Below, in pieces: positions 10,665-18,142 of a stretch of DNA of 64,000 nucleotides. The stretch lies in assembly GCA_020062665.1 (NCBI GenBank), contig JAGUVW010000043.1, positions 1 through 64,000 of the forward strand, given 5' to 3'. Numbering within the stretch: the first letter of the stretch is position 1; each line of letters starts with the position of its first letter. The position numbers were made by a program, and so were the translations under genes. Source of the stretch: Pseudomonadales bacterium (GTDB lineage: Bacteria; Pseudomonadota; Gammaproteobacteria; Pseudomonadales; Ketobacteraceae). The notes beneath the pieces were generated by a model. The model saw only the letters and a list, made by a program, of their open reading frames with translations. It made no database searches and was not told the origin of the DNA.

Positions 10665-11096
10665 ATGAACGCACGCGCCCTGGTTTCGAAAGCTGTCTTG
10701 ACCGTCGCAGGATGCCTTTTGATGTTGCCGTCAGTGACGGCGGTTGCGGATTTCAATAGCGGTGTCAACGGCACTGTTGGTCACTACAATCCGCACGGTC
10801 TGGGTGACTTCCCCGAGAGCGCCATTCCCCTGTTTTCGATTCGCGTCAGCGCCAGCACCGACCTGATGAAAGGCAATGCGCTGGATGTAGTCGCTTCTTA
10901 CCGCAGTGTGGGCTTGAATCAGAACAGCGCCAATCTGCAATACAACGAGCTTTCCACCGAATTTTCAGTGTCGGCTCCCCGCATCAAGAGCCTGGATTTT
11001 TCCCAGGCTATCCGCGAGAAAGTGGAAATCTGCCCCGAAAAGCTGATCGACAAGATGATCATCGACGGTGCGGTGGGTTTCAATTATCAGTGGTAA
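10665..11096 (+). CDS. small secreted protein of unknown function
   Basis: 143 residues. A clear Sec signal peptide spans 1-28, with a hydrophobic core around 10-22 and a signal peptidase site after VTAVA. The mature part (about 12 kDa) is rich in Ser, Asn and Val, has no internal repeats and ends in GAVGFNYQW. The alternating polar/non-polar pattern and aromatic end suggest beta structure in the periplasm or outer membrane. Two cysteines exist, but only one (in EICPEKL) remains after cleavage, so no disulfide. I do not recognise the family. Its TAA directly abuts the stop of the convergent nucleotidase gene, with no terminator between them. Confidence 0.65.
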   Translation: MNARALVSKAVLTVAGCLLMLPSVTAVADFNSGVNGTVGHYNPHGLGDFPESAIPLFSIRVSASTDLMKGNALDVVASYRSVGLNQNSANLQYNELSTEFSVSAPRIKSLDFSQAIREKVEICPEKLIDKMIIDGAVGFNYQW

Positions 11097-12002
11097 TCAA
11101 CTGTTGACCACGCCGTGAGGAACATGGCCCGCCGCCACATGATGGCTGGCAGACAGGCAATGGCCTTCCTGATCATCGAAAAACACGTCTGCGCCGAACG
11201 CCTTCAAAAACACGCCTTTATCCAGCCCGCCCAGAAACAGTGATTCATCGATGCGGATGTTCCAGTCGCGCAGTGTGCGCACCACCCTTTCGTGGGCCGG
11301 TGCCGAGCGTGCGGTAACCAATGCCGTGCGGATGGGGCAACTGTCCTCGGAAAACTGGGCCTGCAGATTGTGCAATGCTTGCAGAAACGGTTTGAACGGC
11401 CCGCCTCGCATTGGCGTTTTCGCGGCGGCCCGTTCTGATTCTGCAAACGCGGCAAGCCCCTGGGTTTGATAGACACGCTCGGATTCGTCGGAAAACAGCA
11501 CGGCATCTCCGTCGAACGCAATTTTCAGTTCGGCGCTTTCGTTGGTGGGATGCACTCGTGCCGGCGCGATGATGCTGGCAGCGGCATAGCCCAGTTCCAG
11601 TGCGGCGCGAACATCATCCGGATTGGTGGAGATGAACAGGTGTGCGCCGAAGGCTTCCACGTAGCGATAAGGACTCTTGCCACCGGAAAAAGCGGCGCGG
11701 GTGATGGGCAGCTGCCAGTGTTCGATGGAGTTGAACACCCGCAGCCCGGTGTCGGCGGAATTGCGCGACAGCAGAATGACTTCCACCCGTGCATCGCCTT
11801 CCAGCATTTCATTGATGGCGAGAAATTTTTTCACGAGCGGAAAGGCTTCGCCTGGTTGCAGCGGCACGTCTTCGTGATCGATCTGGTACTGGCGATAGGC
11901 TTCCAGTCCCTGGCTGTTGTAAATGGCGTGGCTCTCGCTCAGGTCGAACAAGGCCCGCGACGAGGTGGCTACCACCAGTTTTCCTTCAAATGAAATGGGC
12001 AT
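11097..12002 (-). CDS. 5'-nucleotidase (cytosolic NT5C1-like family)
   Basis: 301 residues of the family resembling animal cytosolic 5'-nucleotidase I (PF06189 type), which hydrolyses nucleoside monophosphates. Recognisable segments are the start VVATSSRALFDL, LLSRNSADTGLRVFNSI, TRAAFSGGKSPY and IAFDGDAVLFSDESERVY in the centre, then FLGGLDKGVFLKAF and ADVFFDDQ. It starts 1 base after the stop of the AddA-like helicase gene, so it is the last gene of that operon. Translational coupling is likely, raising a possible link to nucleotide release during DNA degradation. Confidence 0.85.
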   Translation of the reverse strand: MPISFEGKLVVATSSRALFDLSESHAIYNSQGLEAYRQYQIDHEDVPLQPGEAFPLVKKFLAINEMLEGDARVEVILLSRNSADTGLRVFNSIEHWQLPITRAAFSGGKSPYRYVEAFGAHLFISTNPDDVRAALELGYAAASIIAPARVHPTNESAELKIAFDGDAVLFSDESERVYQTQGLAAFAESERAAAKTPMRGGPFKPFLQALHNLQAQFSEDSCPIRTALVTARSAPAHERVVRTLRDWNIRIDESLFLGGLDKGVFLKAFGADVFFDDQEGHCLSASHHVAAGHVPHGVVNS

Positions 12003-12003
12003 G

Positions 12004-15000
12004 TCAGGTCTCCACTTCCTGCAAATGATCGATCAGGGGGAAATATAGATAGGTGCGACAGGGGATGCCATCCTGCGCAGTCAGAATGTCGCGGTAATTT
12101 TTCAGCTGGGGGCGATAGCGTTCGGTTTCCTCGGCCAGAAATTCGGTCAGATCGCCGCTGGGCTCTGCCAGCTTGTAGTCGACGATGTGACGAATGCCAT
12201 CTTCGATAAAGGTGCGATCGATGATCCAGTGCTGCAGGCCGTCCTGATTGCTGGCGGAGACGGCGTATTCCACCTGTGCATCCTGATGGGGAAGCTCCAG
12301 CAACCAGCGCCGGCGTGATGGATTGACCAGCAGATTGTCGAGGGCGCGGCGAATCCACTGGGCGCCCTGTGTGCACGCGGCTTCGTCATGGCCCTGGCTC
12401 TGCAGCTGTCGCTGCCATTGCTGTTGCAGTGCGCCTGAAATCGATGGTGGAATGCAGTGCGGATACCGGGCCCACATTTCCAGCATTCTGTGCAGGATGA
12501 TACCGGCGGCACGGTGAATGTCCGGCTGGGTTGATTCGCCGTCGGCTGCGTCGGGCGTGGCAACGGGCCGAGCTGGCACGGATTCGACGTGCAATTGTTG
12601 GGCTGGAATGCGGGTCGGTCGGCGGAAAAACCGCGGCGCCGGCACCGCTTCCAGCACCGGAACGTCGTGGGGTTTTGCCTGATCCGCTATCACCGGATAG
12701 ACAGAGGCCAGCAGACTGGCGGAATCCGGATTGCGCGTCTTGTCATCCTGACGGACGATGCAGCCCGACAGATAAAGCTGTTGCCGCGCGCGCGTACTCG
12801 CGACGTAGAGCAGGCGCACTGATTCGTTGGCGGCGCGTTGCTGGCGGATTTTCCACAAATATTCGTACACGCTGTTGCTGTCCGCTGCACCGGGCGTTGC
12901 AGGGGCGATAAACAGTTCCTGGCGCTGATCGAGCAGCGCGGTCTGTTTGTCCACCAGAATCAAGGGTCGGTCGTCGCGGCGCCCTTTGCGGTGTAGCTGG
13001 GGCAGAAACACCACGTCGAACTCGAGCCCTTTGGATTTGTGCATCGTCATGATCTGTACGCGGACGTTAGCGTCGGGCAACGGTTCGGGCGGCACGAACA
13101 GCTTGGCCAGCTTTTTCTGCAGTGCCTTTGCGTCGGGCAGGCCTCCCACGGATTCCACGTTTCCGAGCAGCTCAAAAAACAGTTCCATCGCCTCCACTTC
13201 GGCCTGATTGTGAGCCGTTGCGGCCATACCCAATTGCAGCGCCAACTCCCGCAGTGCTTCGGCAAACGGTCGTTGCAATCGCCGCAGGTAGAAATCGCCG
13301 ACAGCACTGCGCAGATGTTGCAGACGCAGGCGTGTAAAAGCGTCCAGATTGGAAGAGCTTTCACATAGCGTTTGCAATGCCAACCACGGATGAGGATCCG
13401 CTCGGGCCACTTGCTCCAGCTCCACCAGCGACAGTCCGCACCATGGGCCGCGCAGCAAGGCAAACCAGGCGGTTTTGTTACCCGGTGCCACGCACACCTG
13501 GTACAGGGACATCAGATCGAGAATCACCTGGCTTTCGGCCAGACTTTCAATGTCCACGGCTTGATAGGGGATGGCTTTTTTTCGCAGTGCCTCAGCAATG
13601 TGCACGATATGGGACTTGCCTTTCACCAGAATGGCAACACTGATTTTTCTGTCTTGCTTATGCAGCTGTTCGATCTGCTGTGCGATCCAGTCGGCTTCTG
13701 CGTGTGCCAGTTGCTGAAGATCGGCGCCGTAGAAAAAATGCGTTTCGGCGGCATCGCCTTCTGCGCAGACACGAGCGGCTTGGGACAGTGCGTACTGCAC
13801 GGCGCCAGTGCGAGTGTCATCCCGTTTCGGAAACGCTGCACCGAAGCTGGTGTTCACCCAATCCAGCACCCGCGCCGACGAACGGAAGTTCATGCACAGC
13901 TGCAGCGGTTCCAGTGCCACCTGACCTAGCTGCTTTTCGTGCCATAGTTTGAGGAACAGCCCAACATCGGCTTTGCGGAAAGCATAGATGGACTGCATGG
14001 GATCACCCACCAGAAAGAGGGTGCGGCCATCGCCGGGCACCCAGCCCTGGGCGAGTTTTTCCAGCAGATCGATCTGGATGAAGGAAGTGTCCTGAAATTC
14101 ATCCACCAGAATGTGCGCGATCTTCTCATCCATCGCCAGCATGGCATCGGTGGGTTTTTCTTCGCTGCCGAGCGCCTGCAGCGCCGCCAGTGCCACCTCG
14201 CTGAAATCCACACTGTGACGTTGCTGGAACACCAGCTTTAGATGCGCTGCGGCGTAGCGCACGATCAGCACCAGATCTTCCAGCAGGCTCCACTCGTCTG
14301 CCGTCAGTTCCGGGTTGGGCGCATTGATGAAAGCGGTGACCCGTGTCAGCAGCGGCTGCGCCAGCGCGTCGAAACGATCCAGCATGGCTTTGGCCCGTGC
14401 CTTGAATTCGTCCTCCGGTTTTGGGCCTTTGCCTTTGCTGGCGGGAGGGAATCCCATATTTTTATCCAGCCGACTGCGCCACTTGTAGCCCTTGGTTTCC
14501 TGATCGCGGGTGAGAAACAGCTGCCACTGTTGCTTGCGGAATGCCAGGCTGTCCGATTCACACTGCAATAGCGGATGATCGGATTTTTCCAGCTGCAGAT
14601 TGTTGATCGCATAGGTGGTCAGCGCATCCAGCTCCTGACGGATGCCGGGTGGCAGCTGATCCAGCAGATGCGTTTCTGCCTCCTGATTGATGGTTTGCAG
14701 GGAGCTGGTCAGCAGCTGCTGGAACGCATGCCAGTCCTGCTGGGTTTGTGTCACGTCGTGCAGCCAGTGGTCGCGCTGTTCCAGCATCTGCACGATGAGC
14801 CCCTGCAACTTGCTGAAGCGGTTTTCGAACTGGTGCAACACGCGAAACAGCGCTTTGGCCACGTCGCTGTCTTCGTCGAGGGATGCCAGCAGATTGCGGG
14901 TTGCTTCCAGATAGAGTTCGGCCGCGTCGTCTTCCACGCCGAACTGTGCGCCCAATCCTGCGGTCAGCAGATTTTCTTTCACCAGCGAGCTGCACAGACT

Positions 15001-15357
15001 GTCGATGGTCTGCAGTCGCAGGCGGCCCAGGTTCTGCAGCAGGTTCCAGCCTTTTTCGCGGTCGCGCACCAGCGCTGCGGACGCCAGATTGAAATAGGTC
15101 TGCTCGTGGGCATCCTGTGGTGACTCGCCCTGCATTGCGCGTTGCAGCGCTTCGGCCACTCGCGTGCGCATTTCCGCCGCCGCTTTTTTGGTGAAGGTGA
15201 TCGCCAGAATCTGCTCCGGCCGCTCTACCTGTGCCAGCAGTTTCAGAATGCGCTGGGTAAGCACACCGGTTTTGCCGGAACCCGCCGGTGCCTGCACGAT
15301 GAAGCTGCGCGATGTGTCGAGGGCCTGCTGTCGCTGCTGGGCGTCAATCACGGTCAT
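12004..15357 (-). CDS. AddA-like UvrD-family helicase with C-terminal nuclease domain
   Basis: 1117 residues. Superfamily 1A helicase motifs in order: Walker A APAGSGKT (23-30), motif Ia AITFTKKAAAEMR, motif II DEFQDTSF (about 421), motif III VGDPMQSIYAFRKADV, motif V TMHKSKGLEFDVVFLP and motif VI LYVASTRARQQLYL. The C-terminal RecB-family nuclease core includes HWIIDRTF and the D-x-K motif IVDYK (about 1059). With the upstream gene it forms a double-strand-end processing helicase/nuclease of the AddAB/RecBCD class. The start ATG 15357 overlaps the upstream gene by 14 bases; the frame is open further upstream, but that part lies entirely inside the neighbour. Confidence 0.88.
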   Translation of the reverse strand: MTVIDAQQRQQALDTSRSFIVQAPAGSGKTGVLTQRILKLLAQVERPEQILAITFTKKAAAEMRTRVAEALQRAMQGESPQDAHEQTYFNLASAALVRDREKGWNLLQNLGRLRLQTIDSLCSSLVKENLLTAGLGAQFGVEDDAAELYLEATRNLLASLDEDSDVAKALFRVLHQFENRFSKLQGLIVQMLEQRDHWLHDVTQTQQDWHAFQQLLTSSLQTINQEAETHLLDQLPPGIRQELDALTTYAINNLQLEKSDHPLLQCESDSLAFRKQQWQLFLTRDQETKGYKWRSRLDKNMGFPPASKGKGPKPEDEFKARAKAMLDRFDALAQPLLTRVTAFINAPNPELTADEWSLLEDLVLIVRYAAAHLKLVFQQRHSVDFSEVALAALQALGSEEKPTDAMLAMDEKIAHILVDEFQDTSFIQIDLLEKLAQGWVPGDGRTLFLVGDPMQSIYAFRKADVGLFLKLWHEKQLGQVALEPLQLCMNFRSSARVLDWVNTSFGAAFPKRDDTRTGAVQYALSQAARVCAEGDAAETHFFYGADLQQLAHAEADWIAQQIEQLHKQDRKISVAILVKGKSHIVHIAEALRKKAIPYQAVDIESLAESQVILDLMSLYQVCVAPGNKTAWFALLRGPWCGLSLVELEQVARADPHPWLALQTLCESSSNLDAFTRLRLQHLRSAVGDFYLRRLQRPFAEALRELALQLGMAATAHNQAEVEAMELFFELLGNVESVGGLPDAKALQKKLAKLFVPPEPLPDANVRVQIMTMHKSKGLEFDVVFLPQLHRKGRRDDRPLILVDKQTALLDQRQELFIAPATPGAADSNSVYEYLWKIRQQRAANESVRLLYVASTRARQQLYLSGCIVRQDDKTRNPDSASLLASVYPVIADQAKPHDVPVLEAVPAPRFFRRPTRIPAQQLHVESVPARPVATPDAADGESTQPDIHRAAGIILHRMLEMWARYPHCIPPSISGALQQQWQRQLQSQGHDEAACTQGAQWIRRALDNLLVNPSRRRWLLELPHQDAQVEYAVSASNQDGLQHWIIDRTFIEDGIRHIVDYKLAEPSGDLTEFLAEETERYRPQLKNYRDILTAQDGIPCRTYLYFPLIDHLQEVET

Positions 15358-17995
15358 GGGCCACCTCATTAACACGGCACACCGCGGCCAGATGACAGAA
15401 AGTGCAGGTGTTGTCATTCAGCGGCGATACTTCTGCCCTGCCCTGGCGATATTCTTCTGCAAGCCGCTCCAGCGTTTTCTGCCAGTCCTGCATCTGCTGG
15501 TGCCAGTCGTCTGCCTGTTTGAGGGCGCTGTTCTTGCCCAGAGCAAACAGGTCACGCTGCTGCAACAATCCCTTGTACGTCAGCGCATCGGGTTTGAGTA
15601 CGCCGAACAGCACGCCCTTGGTTTTGTCCGGTTCCAGCAGCGTGTAGAGCGGCAATTGTGGTTCTTCGGGCCGCTCGCCGATCCAGGCTTTGTGATCCTT
15701 GTCGCCACTTTTGTAATCCACGATCACATAATCGCCGCTCTGCAGCTGGTCGATGCGATCCACTGCAAGATCCAGCTGCAGCCCACCGATCTGCAGTGCG
15801 CGCCGTTTTTCCACCTGCACGATGTTGAAGGGCTCGCGCTGGCCGTCACACTCCTGCAGCCAGCGCCGGACGATGTTGAACGTGCGCAGCCGTTCCAGAT
15901 CGTACAGCGCCTGCGGTTCCAGAAACACCTGCTGGCGAAAGCCCTGCATTTCACGCTCGATAATGTTATTCAGCCAAGTGTCCAGTTTCGGCTCATCCTG
16001 CAGCAGCGCAGCCAGTGCGGCTGAATCCTGCAGCTCGCGCCAGATCATTTCCATGACTTTGTGCAGCAGCGAGCCGCGATCGGAGGCCTTGATGCCGTCG
16101 GCCAGCTCATCTTCCGCCCGCAGATTCAGCCGGTATTCTGCAAATGCCTTGAACGGACACAGTGACTGGGACTTGATGATGCCGCTGCCACCTTTGGCAT
16201 GTTGATCCGCCACCGGCGTTCCCAGCACATCCGCCGGCAGCACCTCGATTGAATCATGAAGTTGCTCGAATTGAATCTGTTCGGCGGACGCCACGTCAGC
16301 AATCTGAAATGGGGAGGCCACCAGTGTATTCAGCAACGCGGAGCAGGTGTGTTCGGTCTCGCCCTGCATCTCGCCCCAGCTGAACATCACGTGATCGGCA
16401 GCGGTCTGAAATCCCGCCAGCAAACGTGTGGCATATTGCAGCTCCCGCTCCGGACTGGCGCCGGGCATGTTCATCGCGCGCTGCAGCGGCCGCGACAGCA
16501 GTGGATTGGGATTGACGGACTGCGGCCAGTTCACTGCTTCCATTTCGCACACCCACAGGCGATCGAACGCGAGCCCCGCCGCTTCCAGCACGCCCATGAT
16601 CTGGATCGGCGCCGTTTCGGTCTGTGGTTGAAACTGCACATTTTTCAGCGCTTCTTCCAGCGTACGGCGAAAGCGGTCGAAATCGATGTCACCCAGCCAG
16701 TCATGCAGCTCCTGCAGCTGGCCCAGCGTTTCCAGCAAGCGTTGCTGCAGCTGGAACTCCTCGCTGTCCAGACTGCGACCCTGACGACTCATCACAAGCG
16801 CCATGAAGCGGTTGAACCACTGAATCCAGCGCACAATCGGTTGCCGGCCACGACTCTGCAGCGACTGGAGTTGGCCAAGCCAGGTAGAAGTTTCGTCGTC
16901 GCCACAACGCTGCAACCAGCGTTCCCGCACGGCAGACAGCCGCAATGCTTTCAGGTTCTGAGCCCGCAGCCACTGGAAAAAACCATCGCGCCGCAACCAC
17001 TCCGACTCGCCGGCACAACTATAGGGACTGGTGAGCAGCAGATTCCATTCCTGCAACGACAATTCACCCGCCAGCCCCCGCAGCCACAGTAGCAGTTGCG
17101 ACACCAGCGGATAATCGCCCAGGGTTTGCGCTGCCGTAATATTGATGATGGTCGACCAATGTTGATCCGCTGCATCCGGCTGCAACGACCAGAGATGCCG
17201 GCACAGCGTCCGCACCCGATTGCGTTGCGCCTGCAGATTGGGAATCACCACGCCGATGCGCGCGGCGTTTGTACGTTGCTGCAGCGCCCAGTGAATGGCC
17301 TGTGCAAACTGATCGTCCACCTGCGGCAGCGTGACAATCTCGCACCGCGACTGTTTGGGCGGAATGGCCGACGCGTGCACCCGAATGCCATCCTGCTCCA
17401 GCCATTGCATGAACTGACGCAGCTGCGGTTCATCGGGATCGTTGAATCCATGCAGATATATGTTGCGCGGCAAACCGGCGCGCAGAACGCTTCCCTGCTC
17501 CATCACCCATTGCGCCAGCGCAGGCTGATCCAGACAACGCTGACTGCGCAGCAACTGGGAATAGGCCTGATGCCAGCGGGCAAACTCGATCTGCTCCAGC
17601 TTGTCACCGGCCTGCCACTGCGCCGGTTGCCAGCGCCAGCGACACAGCAGCGCGCGCGCTTGCTGTGCCAGCGCCACCAGTCCGTCGATATCCTGACCGT
17701 TCTCCCAGTGCTGCTCCAGCACCTGACGCCACAGCAACGCACTCTGCGCACTCGACAGCAACCGGGGATGGCCGTGCTCCGGTGCCGGCACCAGCAGGCA
17801 AATCTCGGCGTACCACTGCTGCAGCCACTGCTCGAGCGGCACTGCATTCAGGCGCGCCCAGCTGCGCGTACCGCAGGACAGCTGCCAACTGTCGTAATCG
17901 CGATCAAGCCACGCAGCCAGGCGGCGGTTGGGTGTCAGCACCAGCAGGTCGGCGGGGAGCGCAGTGATGTCGAGATAAACGGAATCTATCGTCAT
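15344..17995 (-). CDS. AddB-like PD-(D/E)XK nuclease with iron-sulfur staple
   Basis: 883 residues, resembling the family listed as probable DNA repair protein that is paired with a UvrD-type helicase. The N-terminal helicase-like region lacks a Walker A motif (LLVLTPNRRLAAWLD in its place), so its ATPase is dead, as in AddB/RecC-like scaffolds. The C-terminal nuclease has ALQIGGLQLDLAVDRID and the D-x-K segment DYVIVDYKSGD (about 760). Four cysteines, one in SLCPFKAF (about 612) and three in CTFCHLAAVC near the end, match the [4Fe-4S] staple of AddB nucleases. First gene of a three-gene operon; divergent from the DAHP synthase gene. Confidence 0.85.
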   Translation of the reverse strand: MTIDSVYLDITALPADLLVLTPNRRLAAWLDRDYDSWQLSCGTRSWARLNAVPLEQWLQQWYAEICLLVPAPEHGHPRLLSSAQSALLWRQVLEQHWENGQDIDGLVALAQQARALLCRWRWQPAQWQAGDKLEQIEFARWHQAYSQLLRSQRCLDQPALAQWVMEQGSVLRAGLPRNIYLHGFNDPDEPQLRQFMQWLEQDGIRVHASAIPPKQSRCEIVTLPQVDDQFAQAIHWALQQRTNAARIGVVIPNLQAQRNRVRTLCRHLWSLQPDAADQHWSTIINITAAQTLGDYPLVSQLLLWLRGLAGELSLQEWNLLLTSPYSCAGESEWLRRDGFFQWLRAQNLKALRLSAVRERWLQRCGDDETSTWLGQLQSLQSRGRQPIVRWIQWFNRFMALVMSRQGRSLDSEEFQLQQRLLETLGQLQELHDWLGDIDFDRFRRTLEEALKNVQFQPQTETAPIQIMGVLEAAGLAFDRLWVCEMEAVNWPQSVNPNPLLSRPLQRAMNMPGASPERELQYATRLLAGFQTAADHVMFSWGEMQGETEHTCSALLNTLVASPFQIADVASAEQIQFEQLHDSIEVLPADVLGTPVADQHAKGGSGIIKSQSLCPFKAFAEYRLNLRAEDELADGIKASDRGSLLHKVMEMIWRELQDSAALAALLQDEPKLDTWLNNIIEREMQGFRQQVFLEPQALYDLERLRTFNIVRRWLQECDGQREPFNIVQVEKRRALQIGGLQLDLAVDRIDQLQSGDYVIVDYKSGDKDHKAWIGERPEEPQLPLYTLLEPDKTKGVLFGVLKPDALTYKGLLQQRDLFALGKNSALKQADDWHQQMQDWQKTLERLAEEYRQGRAEVSPLNDNTCTFCHLAAVCRVNEVAHDRD

Positions 17996-18063
17996 GGTTG
18001 GGAAAAATGCTGCCCCGAGTCAGTCCACCGAAGGGAAAATCGCCTTATTATTCTTGGCTCAAA

Positions 18064-18093
18064 CTGTCATAGGATTTCTGATTAGGCTAGAAT
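18064..18093 (+). promoter_or_regulatory. possible promoter of the DAHP synthase gene
   Basis: CTGTCA (18064-18069), 18 bases, TAGAAT (18088-18093), 49 bases before the start codon. Moderate match on both boxes. Confidence 0.45.
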
Positions 18094-18142
18094 CCGTCGA
18101 TCGAGTTTACCTGAAAGCTAGTTCAAATAGGATCGGTTCACA

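Follow-up and report, generated by a model that had tools for sequence, protein, structure and literature searches.

A nucleotidase gene in a predicted addB-addA operon: a recurrent but minority link to DNA-end-processing machines

We analyzed a stretch of 64,000 nucleotides (the window; positions 1 to 64,000 of contig JAGUVW010000043.1, assembly GCA_020062665.1) from a Pseudomonadales bacterium of the family Ketobacteraceae. On its minus strand, three genes run from position 17995 to 11097 without real gaps in the list of open reading frames (ORFs): an addB-like gene (15344..17995; 883 amino acids), an addA-like gene (12004..15417; 1137 amino acids as listed) and a gene for an NT5C1-like HAD nucleotidase of the Pfam family PF06189 (11097..12002; 301 amino acids). 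An earlier note on this DNA, made from the sequence alone, had described an AddAB-like end-processing complex in a tight three-gene operon with a 5'-nucleotidase, and the reading frames and coordinates it gave proved correct. As listed, addB and addA overlap by 74 nt. An alternative AddA start, the ATG at 15357, reduces this to a 14-nt overlap, and since the identical overlap is present in three relatives (loci L129, L130 and L133), this ATG is the likelier and probably the true start. A single base separates the AddA stop from the nucleotidase ATG, and being so close downstream the nucleotidase is presumably co-transcribed with addA.

The AddB-like protein belongs to TIGR03623 ("probable DNA repair protein"), which it matches over residues 18-875 with 626.5 bits against a cut-off of 299.6; it also matches the PDDEXK_1 nuclease domain. 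Profile and alignment place in its C-terminal part a PD-(D/E)XK nuclease with a four-cysteine motif of the iron-sulfur (Fe-S) type. Its N-terminal half is helicase-like, and a motif check of the protein found no Walker A. In the family alignment the four cysteines are conserved in 56-57 of 57 rows and the nuclease residues in all 57. At the level of motifs, then, the four cysteines and the absent Walker A agree with the earlier description of this protein as an Fe-S nuclease with a dead helicase-like half; beyond motifs that description does not carry. The AddA-like protein combines UvrD N- and C-terminal helicase domains of the UvrD/RecB type with C-terminal RecB-type nuclease motifs. Its Walker A and DExx box are kept in at least 51 of 52 rows, so that the motor motifs of superfamily 1A (SF1A) are intact, and its nuclease residues in 47-48 of the 52, the remaining 4-5 rows being gaps. 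Both subunits are therefore predicted to carry a RecB-type nuclease motif.

A profile built from 21 AddB rows had as its best PDB match the AddB chain 3u44_B (E 6e-10), and the best PDB match of AddA was 3u44_A, the AddA of the same structure, which we take to be that of B. subtilis AddAB. A plain phmmer search of the PDB with AddB returned nothing useful. Scores against the existing equivalog models fell far short for both proteins (AddA 237.7 bits, cut-off 860.75; AddB 67.1 bits, cut-off 486.5). Because they lie well under both cut-offs, we class the pair as an AddAB type of the TIGR03623 lineage and not as either equivalog. Judged by profiles, motifs and PDB matches, the product of addB-addA is AddAB in kind, as first proposed. 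It shares with AddAB (RexAB) of the Gram-positive and alphaproteobacterial types the adjacent addB-addA genes, the motor and nuclease motifs of AddA, the nuclease and four-cysteine motif of AddB and, in the window's AddB, the lack of a Walker A. It is unlike them in its equivalog scores, in its membership of the uncharacterized TIGR03623 lineage and in the added nucleotidase.

The earlier note had suggested a check for recBCD elsewhere in the genome. In the source genome (97.7% complete), a profile search that matched its E. coli positive control found no RecC (PF04257). There is a single PDDEXK_1 match. The UvrD-type frames are 786, 683, 671 and 1137 amino acids long, and a fifth, of 399 amino acids, gives two partial matches. 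AddA is the only UvrD-type frame in this genome that is longer than 800 amino acids, and the only one of RecB size. By these searches, addAB is probably the genome's only enzyme of the RecBCD/AddAB type.

The accompanying statement that Gammaproteobacteria usually rely on RecBCD did not hold in our class sample (143 genomes, 143 genera by tally), where TIGR03623 was over cut-off in 61 genomes and RecC in 44. None of the 143 had both over cut-off, against an expectation of 18.8 (hypergeometric p 2e-14, no phylogenetic correction). A 45th RecC match, in genome G027, was below threshold and located inside its AddB gene. Thirty genomes gave a weak TIGR03623 match and no RecC, and presumably carry another AddB type; eight had neither TIGR03623 nor RecC. 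Among 28 relatives, TIGR03623 was found in 18, RecC in 8 and both in none. AddA is a homologue of RecB, and this complementary distribution suggests the same role for the two enzymes; the window enzyme differs from RecBCD in having no RecC, two nuclease domains and one motor. Near-exclusion of AddAB and RecBCD has been published already, with both in 16 of 5563 genomes (PMC6452273), and the AddAB part of our finding is of a known and ordinary kind. What it adds is that the TIGR03623 lineage is a major alternative to RecBCD in the class; we found no mention of this identifier in the literature searched.

The nucleotidase matches PF06189 along its full length (443.3 bits, cut-off 28.2) with HAD motifs I-IV. 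The family includes human NT5C1A, a cytosolic 5'-nucleotidase I listed as a 5'-nucleotidase in PMC5098729. The window protein shares with it the family match and the HAD catalytic residues; it differs in being bacterial, in lying next to DNA-end nucleases and in that its 5'-nucleotidase activity is putative. In the alignment, D164, D166, T230, K262 and D277 are present in 63 of 63 rows, and one motif-IV residue in 62. An AlphaFold model (mean predicted local distance difference test score 88.4) consists of two tandem HAD-like halves, of which only the C-terminal one holds the catalytic set. A profile comparison of the two halves gave a probability of 98.7 (E 3e-16), and gapless extension of that alignment sets D164 and D166 opposite Ser14 (58 of 63 rows) and Arg16 of the N-terminal half. 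PF06189 proteins thus look like tandem HAD-like duplications in which the catalytic aspartates are gone from the N-terminal half.

Neither plain phmmer nor the family profile found a PF06189 structure by sequence in the PDB, and comparison was made with the model. Foldseek gave low whole-length template modeling (TM) scores, HAD phosphatases matching about half of the model; VIA-align matched universal stress proteins along the entire model, and we put these matches down to a common Rossmann arrangement. The highest structural Z was that of Pnkp1 (11.6 for the C-terminal half, root-mean-square deviation 2.8 over 129 residues; 11.2 for the N-terminal half), followed by T4 polynucleotide kinase-phosphatase (11.2), AphA acid phosphatase (10.9) and the mouse mononucleotidase cdN (9.1). 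Because Pnkp1, the T4 enzyme and AphA are tied, the substrate is not readable from the fold.

We surveyed, in samples of genomes, how often the nucleotidase gene accompanies AddAB; genes in the retrieved loci were called by a greedy choice among six-frame ORFs. Of the 143 class genomes, 44 have PF06189, 28 of them together with TIGR03623 over cut-off and 11 with RecC; the nucleotidase is commoner in TIGR03623 genomes (28 of 44; p 7e-4, no phylogenetic correction). We examined 43 of the 44 loci, leaving out that of G092, which is on a 3.3-kb contig. AddA immediately precedes a nucleotidase gene of the same orientation in 13 of the 43, and the distance from the closest AddA piece is -71 to 280 bp. 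No more than four genes away from the nucleotidase, 15 loci have AddA and 11 have AddB, and the two next most frequent families reach 5 loci each; chance adjacency was dropped as an explanation on these counts. Twelve of the 28 class genomes with both families are tightly linked, and the 13th tight locus belongs to a genome (G100) without TIGR03623 over cut-off. Some of the tight loci carry caveats: the AddA of G065 is split in two frames, those of G100 and G088 run off the contig, and the AddB of G037 is on another contig. In four further genomes the genes are near but not in line, at 1.6 kb from AddA (G095), at about 7-10 kb (G063 and G014) or in convergent orientation (G115). The nucleotidase of G027 (L124) is broken by stops or frame changes and still sits directly after addA; that of G121 (L125) is broken in the same way, and other genomes hold intact copies.

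Within the window's own family, addA and the nucleotidase are adjacent in 10 of 15 genomes, the source genome included (the AddA of G153 is cut by the contig end). Of the other five, G143 has its nucleotidase at a contig end and G145 (54% complete) has AddAB and no nucleotidase match. In G152 and G156 the nucleotidase remains between the aroG-type gene and usp/cysB. These two genomes (L293 and L294) have a distant AddAB elsewhere, whose best matches among the survey proteins are 42% for AddA and 37% for AddB. In G144 (L296), RecBCD stands in place of AddAB and the nucleotidase remains at its usual place.

The tight coupling described for the window recurs in other families, and also with RecBCD and SbcCD. 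In the family of class genome G111, the nucleotidase is present in 6 of 17 genomes. All six have it immediately upstream of recC in the same orientation, the two genes overlapping by 4 nt at one extreme and standing 396 bp apart at the other, and all six have recB next. Three also have a labeled recD; the remaining three stretches or contigs end shortly after recB. A family that belongs to a different class has the nucleotidase in 7 of 18 genomes. G260 has the order recC-recB-recD-nucleotidase-sbcD-sbcC, with a 4-nt overlap of nucleotidase and sbcD. G208 and G236 have nucleotidase-sbcD-sbcC, two and four ORFs, respectively, separating recD from the nucleotidase. G240 has the same nucleotidase-sbcD-sbcC order, together with a second copy outside such an arrangement. 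In G248, G279 (a short contig) and G343 the nucleotidase is not in a RecBCD/SbcCD arrangement. These labels rest on profiles made from single sequences; NCBIfam confirmed them for L097 (RecB, RecC and RecD) and, save an SbcC fragment, for L319 (RecB, RecD, SbcD and a partial RecC). A wider scan took in 60 nucleotidase genomes, of which 27 new class members were left out and 20 of 29 out-of-class stretches were read. None of the 20 showed an AddAB neighbor, save for a 38-bit AddA-profile match in G256. A single clade of RecBCD-linked copies was not rejected by the approximately unbiased (AU) test (p 0.237; p 0.122 together with the recBCD/sbcCD family), and because of this we do not count independent events. 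Gains and losses of the linkage are not told apart by parsimony counts. One locus, L305, has a TrlF-family ATPase gene related to anti-phage Ppl (3777-6608) between recD and nucleotidase-sbcD-sbcC.

The link of the nucleotidase with three end-processing machines is thus recurrent and new to the literature searched, yet a minority arrangement. A published AddAB-nucleotidase link was not found there, judged by titles and the starts of abstracts, nor, judged by the titles listed, a link of the nucleotidase with RecBCD, phage or deoxynucleoside monophosphates.

The reading we prefer, at about even odds, is that AddAB is co-expressed with a HAD enzyme that dephosphorylates the products of DNA breakdown. 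The addB-addA product would be the equivalent of RecBCD, with two nucleases and one motor, binding double-strand DNA ends, unwinding and degrading them and, by analogy with known AddAB, handing resected 3' tails to RecA; we infer both this activity and its control by Chi in the window enzyme. The nucleotidase would act on deoxynucleoside monophosphates, or on short fragments by taking off their terminal phosphates; both would be set free as AddAB-like machines, together with other exonucleases, digest foreign DNA or broken chromosomes. Products dephosphorylated in this way would leave the deoxynucleoside triphosphate (dNTP) pool and would not be recycled into dNTPs. Of these steps, we infer co-transcription, the substrate and purpose of the nucleotidase and the dephosphorylation of released nucleotides. 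Recurrence with RecBCD and SbcCD favors a link of the nucleotidase to DNA degradation. More tentatively, and with somewhat worse than even chances, the PF06189 HAD protein may be an unrecognized accessory factor of double-strand-end processing, recruited to AddAB, RecBCD and SbcCD operons and, in mobile form, to islands with restriction or RecB-like-nuclease genes, where it would remove phosphates from nuclease products, blocking reuse of the DNA or healing its ends. Should the coupling prove functional, what happens to the nucleotides or fragments made by RecBCD-class enzymes would become open to testing as a genetically marked step, and a widespread, little-studied bacterial nucleotidase family, itself an unvalidated phage-defense candidate, would gain a specific hypothesis.

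Several observations weigh against a functional coupling. Among the class genomes with both genes, 16 of 28 (G092 among them) are not tight, and 33 of the 61 TIGR03623 genomes have no nucleotidase. Only one of the 11 class RecC genomes with a nucleotidase, G111, has it beside recC. In a scan of the best 80 of at least 586 named relatives, many of them Pseudomonas, adjacent AddAB was seen in 2 and not in 78 (some on short contigs). Two further loci, L262 and L272, have an AddA-profile match at the far end of the stretch, and this count is not a family survey. A cysB relative is near the nucleotidase in 60 of the same 80 loci and is a stabler neighbor than AddAB. Because the nucleotidase stays alone in G144, G152 and G156, it can work without an adjacent nuclease. 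Known AddAB and RecBCD enzymes release mainly oligonucleotides, so a supply of mononucleotides would need other exonucleases. The earlier note had named rare linkage in other genomes as what would speak against it, and on that point the evidence divides: 12 of the 28 class genomes with both families are on its side, the named relatives and the RecC genomes on the other. Overall, its interpretation gained partial support, from AddAB, the absence of RecBCD and the recurring linkage.

There are three other explanations for the arrangement. The first, which we hold to be the strongest of the three and still rather unlikely, is an ordinary AddAB operon that happens to adjoin a housekeeping nucleotidase, in an ancient gene order that some lineages have kept and in which the coupling amounts to shared transcription. 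The many genomes where either partner occurs without the other, the persistence of the nucleotidase where AddAB is elsewhere or replaced, and the nearby cysB relative all fit this explanation. So do the AddA tree, in which 17 of 19 tightly linked AddA rows fall in one part, and the single origin of RecBCD-linked copies that the AU test leaves standing. It is harder to reconcile with the 13 tight AddA loci, every one of which has both genes in one orientation and closely spaced. Moreover, AddA lies upstream of the nucleotidase in one arrangement, recC downstream in another, and recD upstream with sbcD downstream in a third. Because the order differs for each partner, one frozen gene order does not explain the linkage.

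The second explanation, which we consider improbable, is a defense effector: an anti-phage nucleotidase would deplete the nucleotides that a phage needs, with AddAB supplying or accompanying DNA degradation, and the operon would be a defense module of the core genome. The window protein is of the same family as the PADLOC entry PDC-S08, whose profile it matches with 449 bits, and related genes occur in 46 of 72,556 records of plasmids; a search by DNA similarity, made with one plasmid copy, found them in 96 of 5426 E. coli genomes. In contexts picked from listings and not at random, a type I restriction system was near the relative in 4 of 4 E. coli chromosomes, with an integrase and a tRNA gene at the edge in 3 of the 4. 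Copies on E. coli and Arcobacter plasmids also lie near such systems, and other copies are found beside Hhe/AbiH, SIR2 genes and a RecB-like nuclease. Of 15 plasmid contexts, 6 contain, no more than 6-7 kb away, a named gene for defense, restriction, SIR2 or a RecB-like nuclease; 9 do not, 5 of these having nothing but a helicase, nuclease or DUF262 gene of another sort and 4 no such gene of any kind. The phage-defense idea of the earlier note thus finds some backing in the profile match and in the company of several mobile relatives, but not in the window locus, which is chromosomal and lies between aroG and usp/cysB, with the nucleotidase in an AddAB operon and no defense island. PDC entries are described as "guilt-by-embedding" candidates that are not experimentally validated, and strains with PDC-S08 in a P. 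aeruginosa panel split 50/50 into resistant and susceptible (PMC10855318). In a quick tree, the window's copy and all nuclease-linked copies share a clade to which only two of the 18 plasmid or island copies (L277 and L284) belong; the other 16 lie elsewhere. Because most mobile copies are outside this clade, a defense function cannot simply be transferred to the window copy. On the Zymomonas plasmid pZMOB01 (L288), a nucleotidase gene stands beside SIR2, a non-canonical nucleoside triphosphate pyrophosphatase and adenosine deaminase, a set that resembles the Kongming defense system.

The third and least probable explanation is that the HAD protein is no mononucleotidase and strips 3'- or 5'-phosphates from DNA ends or fragments in PNKP-like healing so that products of AddAB, RecBCD or SbcCD can be resected, extended or ligated, for which the top structural matches to Pnkp1 and T4 polynucleotide kinase-phosphatase and the operon company of DNA-end machinery can be cited, but AphA is tied with these matches, the mononucleotidase cdN is also matched, the family contains NT5C1A, and a shared fold says nothing on substrate.

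Two features flank the trio. Upstream, a divergent intergenic region of 147 bp (17996..18142) separates addB from an aroG-type 3-deoxy-D-arabino-heptulosonate 7-phosphate (DAHP) synthase gene. Because no minus-strand sigma-70-like site was scored within it, it is only presumed to hold the operon promoter. Downstream, a plus-strand ORF of 143 amino acids (10665-11096) with a signal-peptide-like start abuts the nucleotidase stop in convergent orientation. It has no Pfam or NCBIfam match, and its relatives occupy the matching place in 7 other loci.

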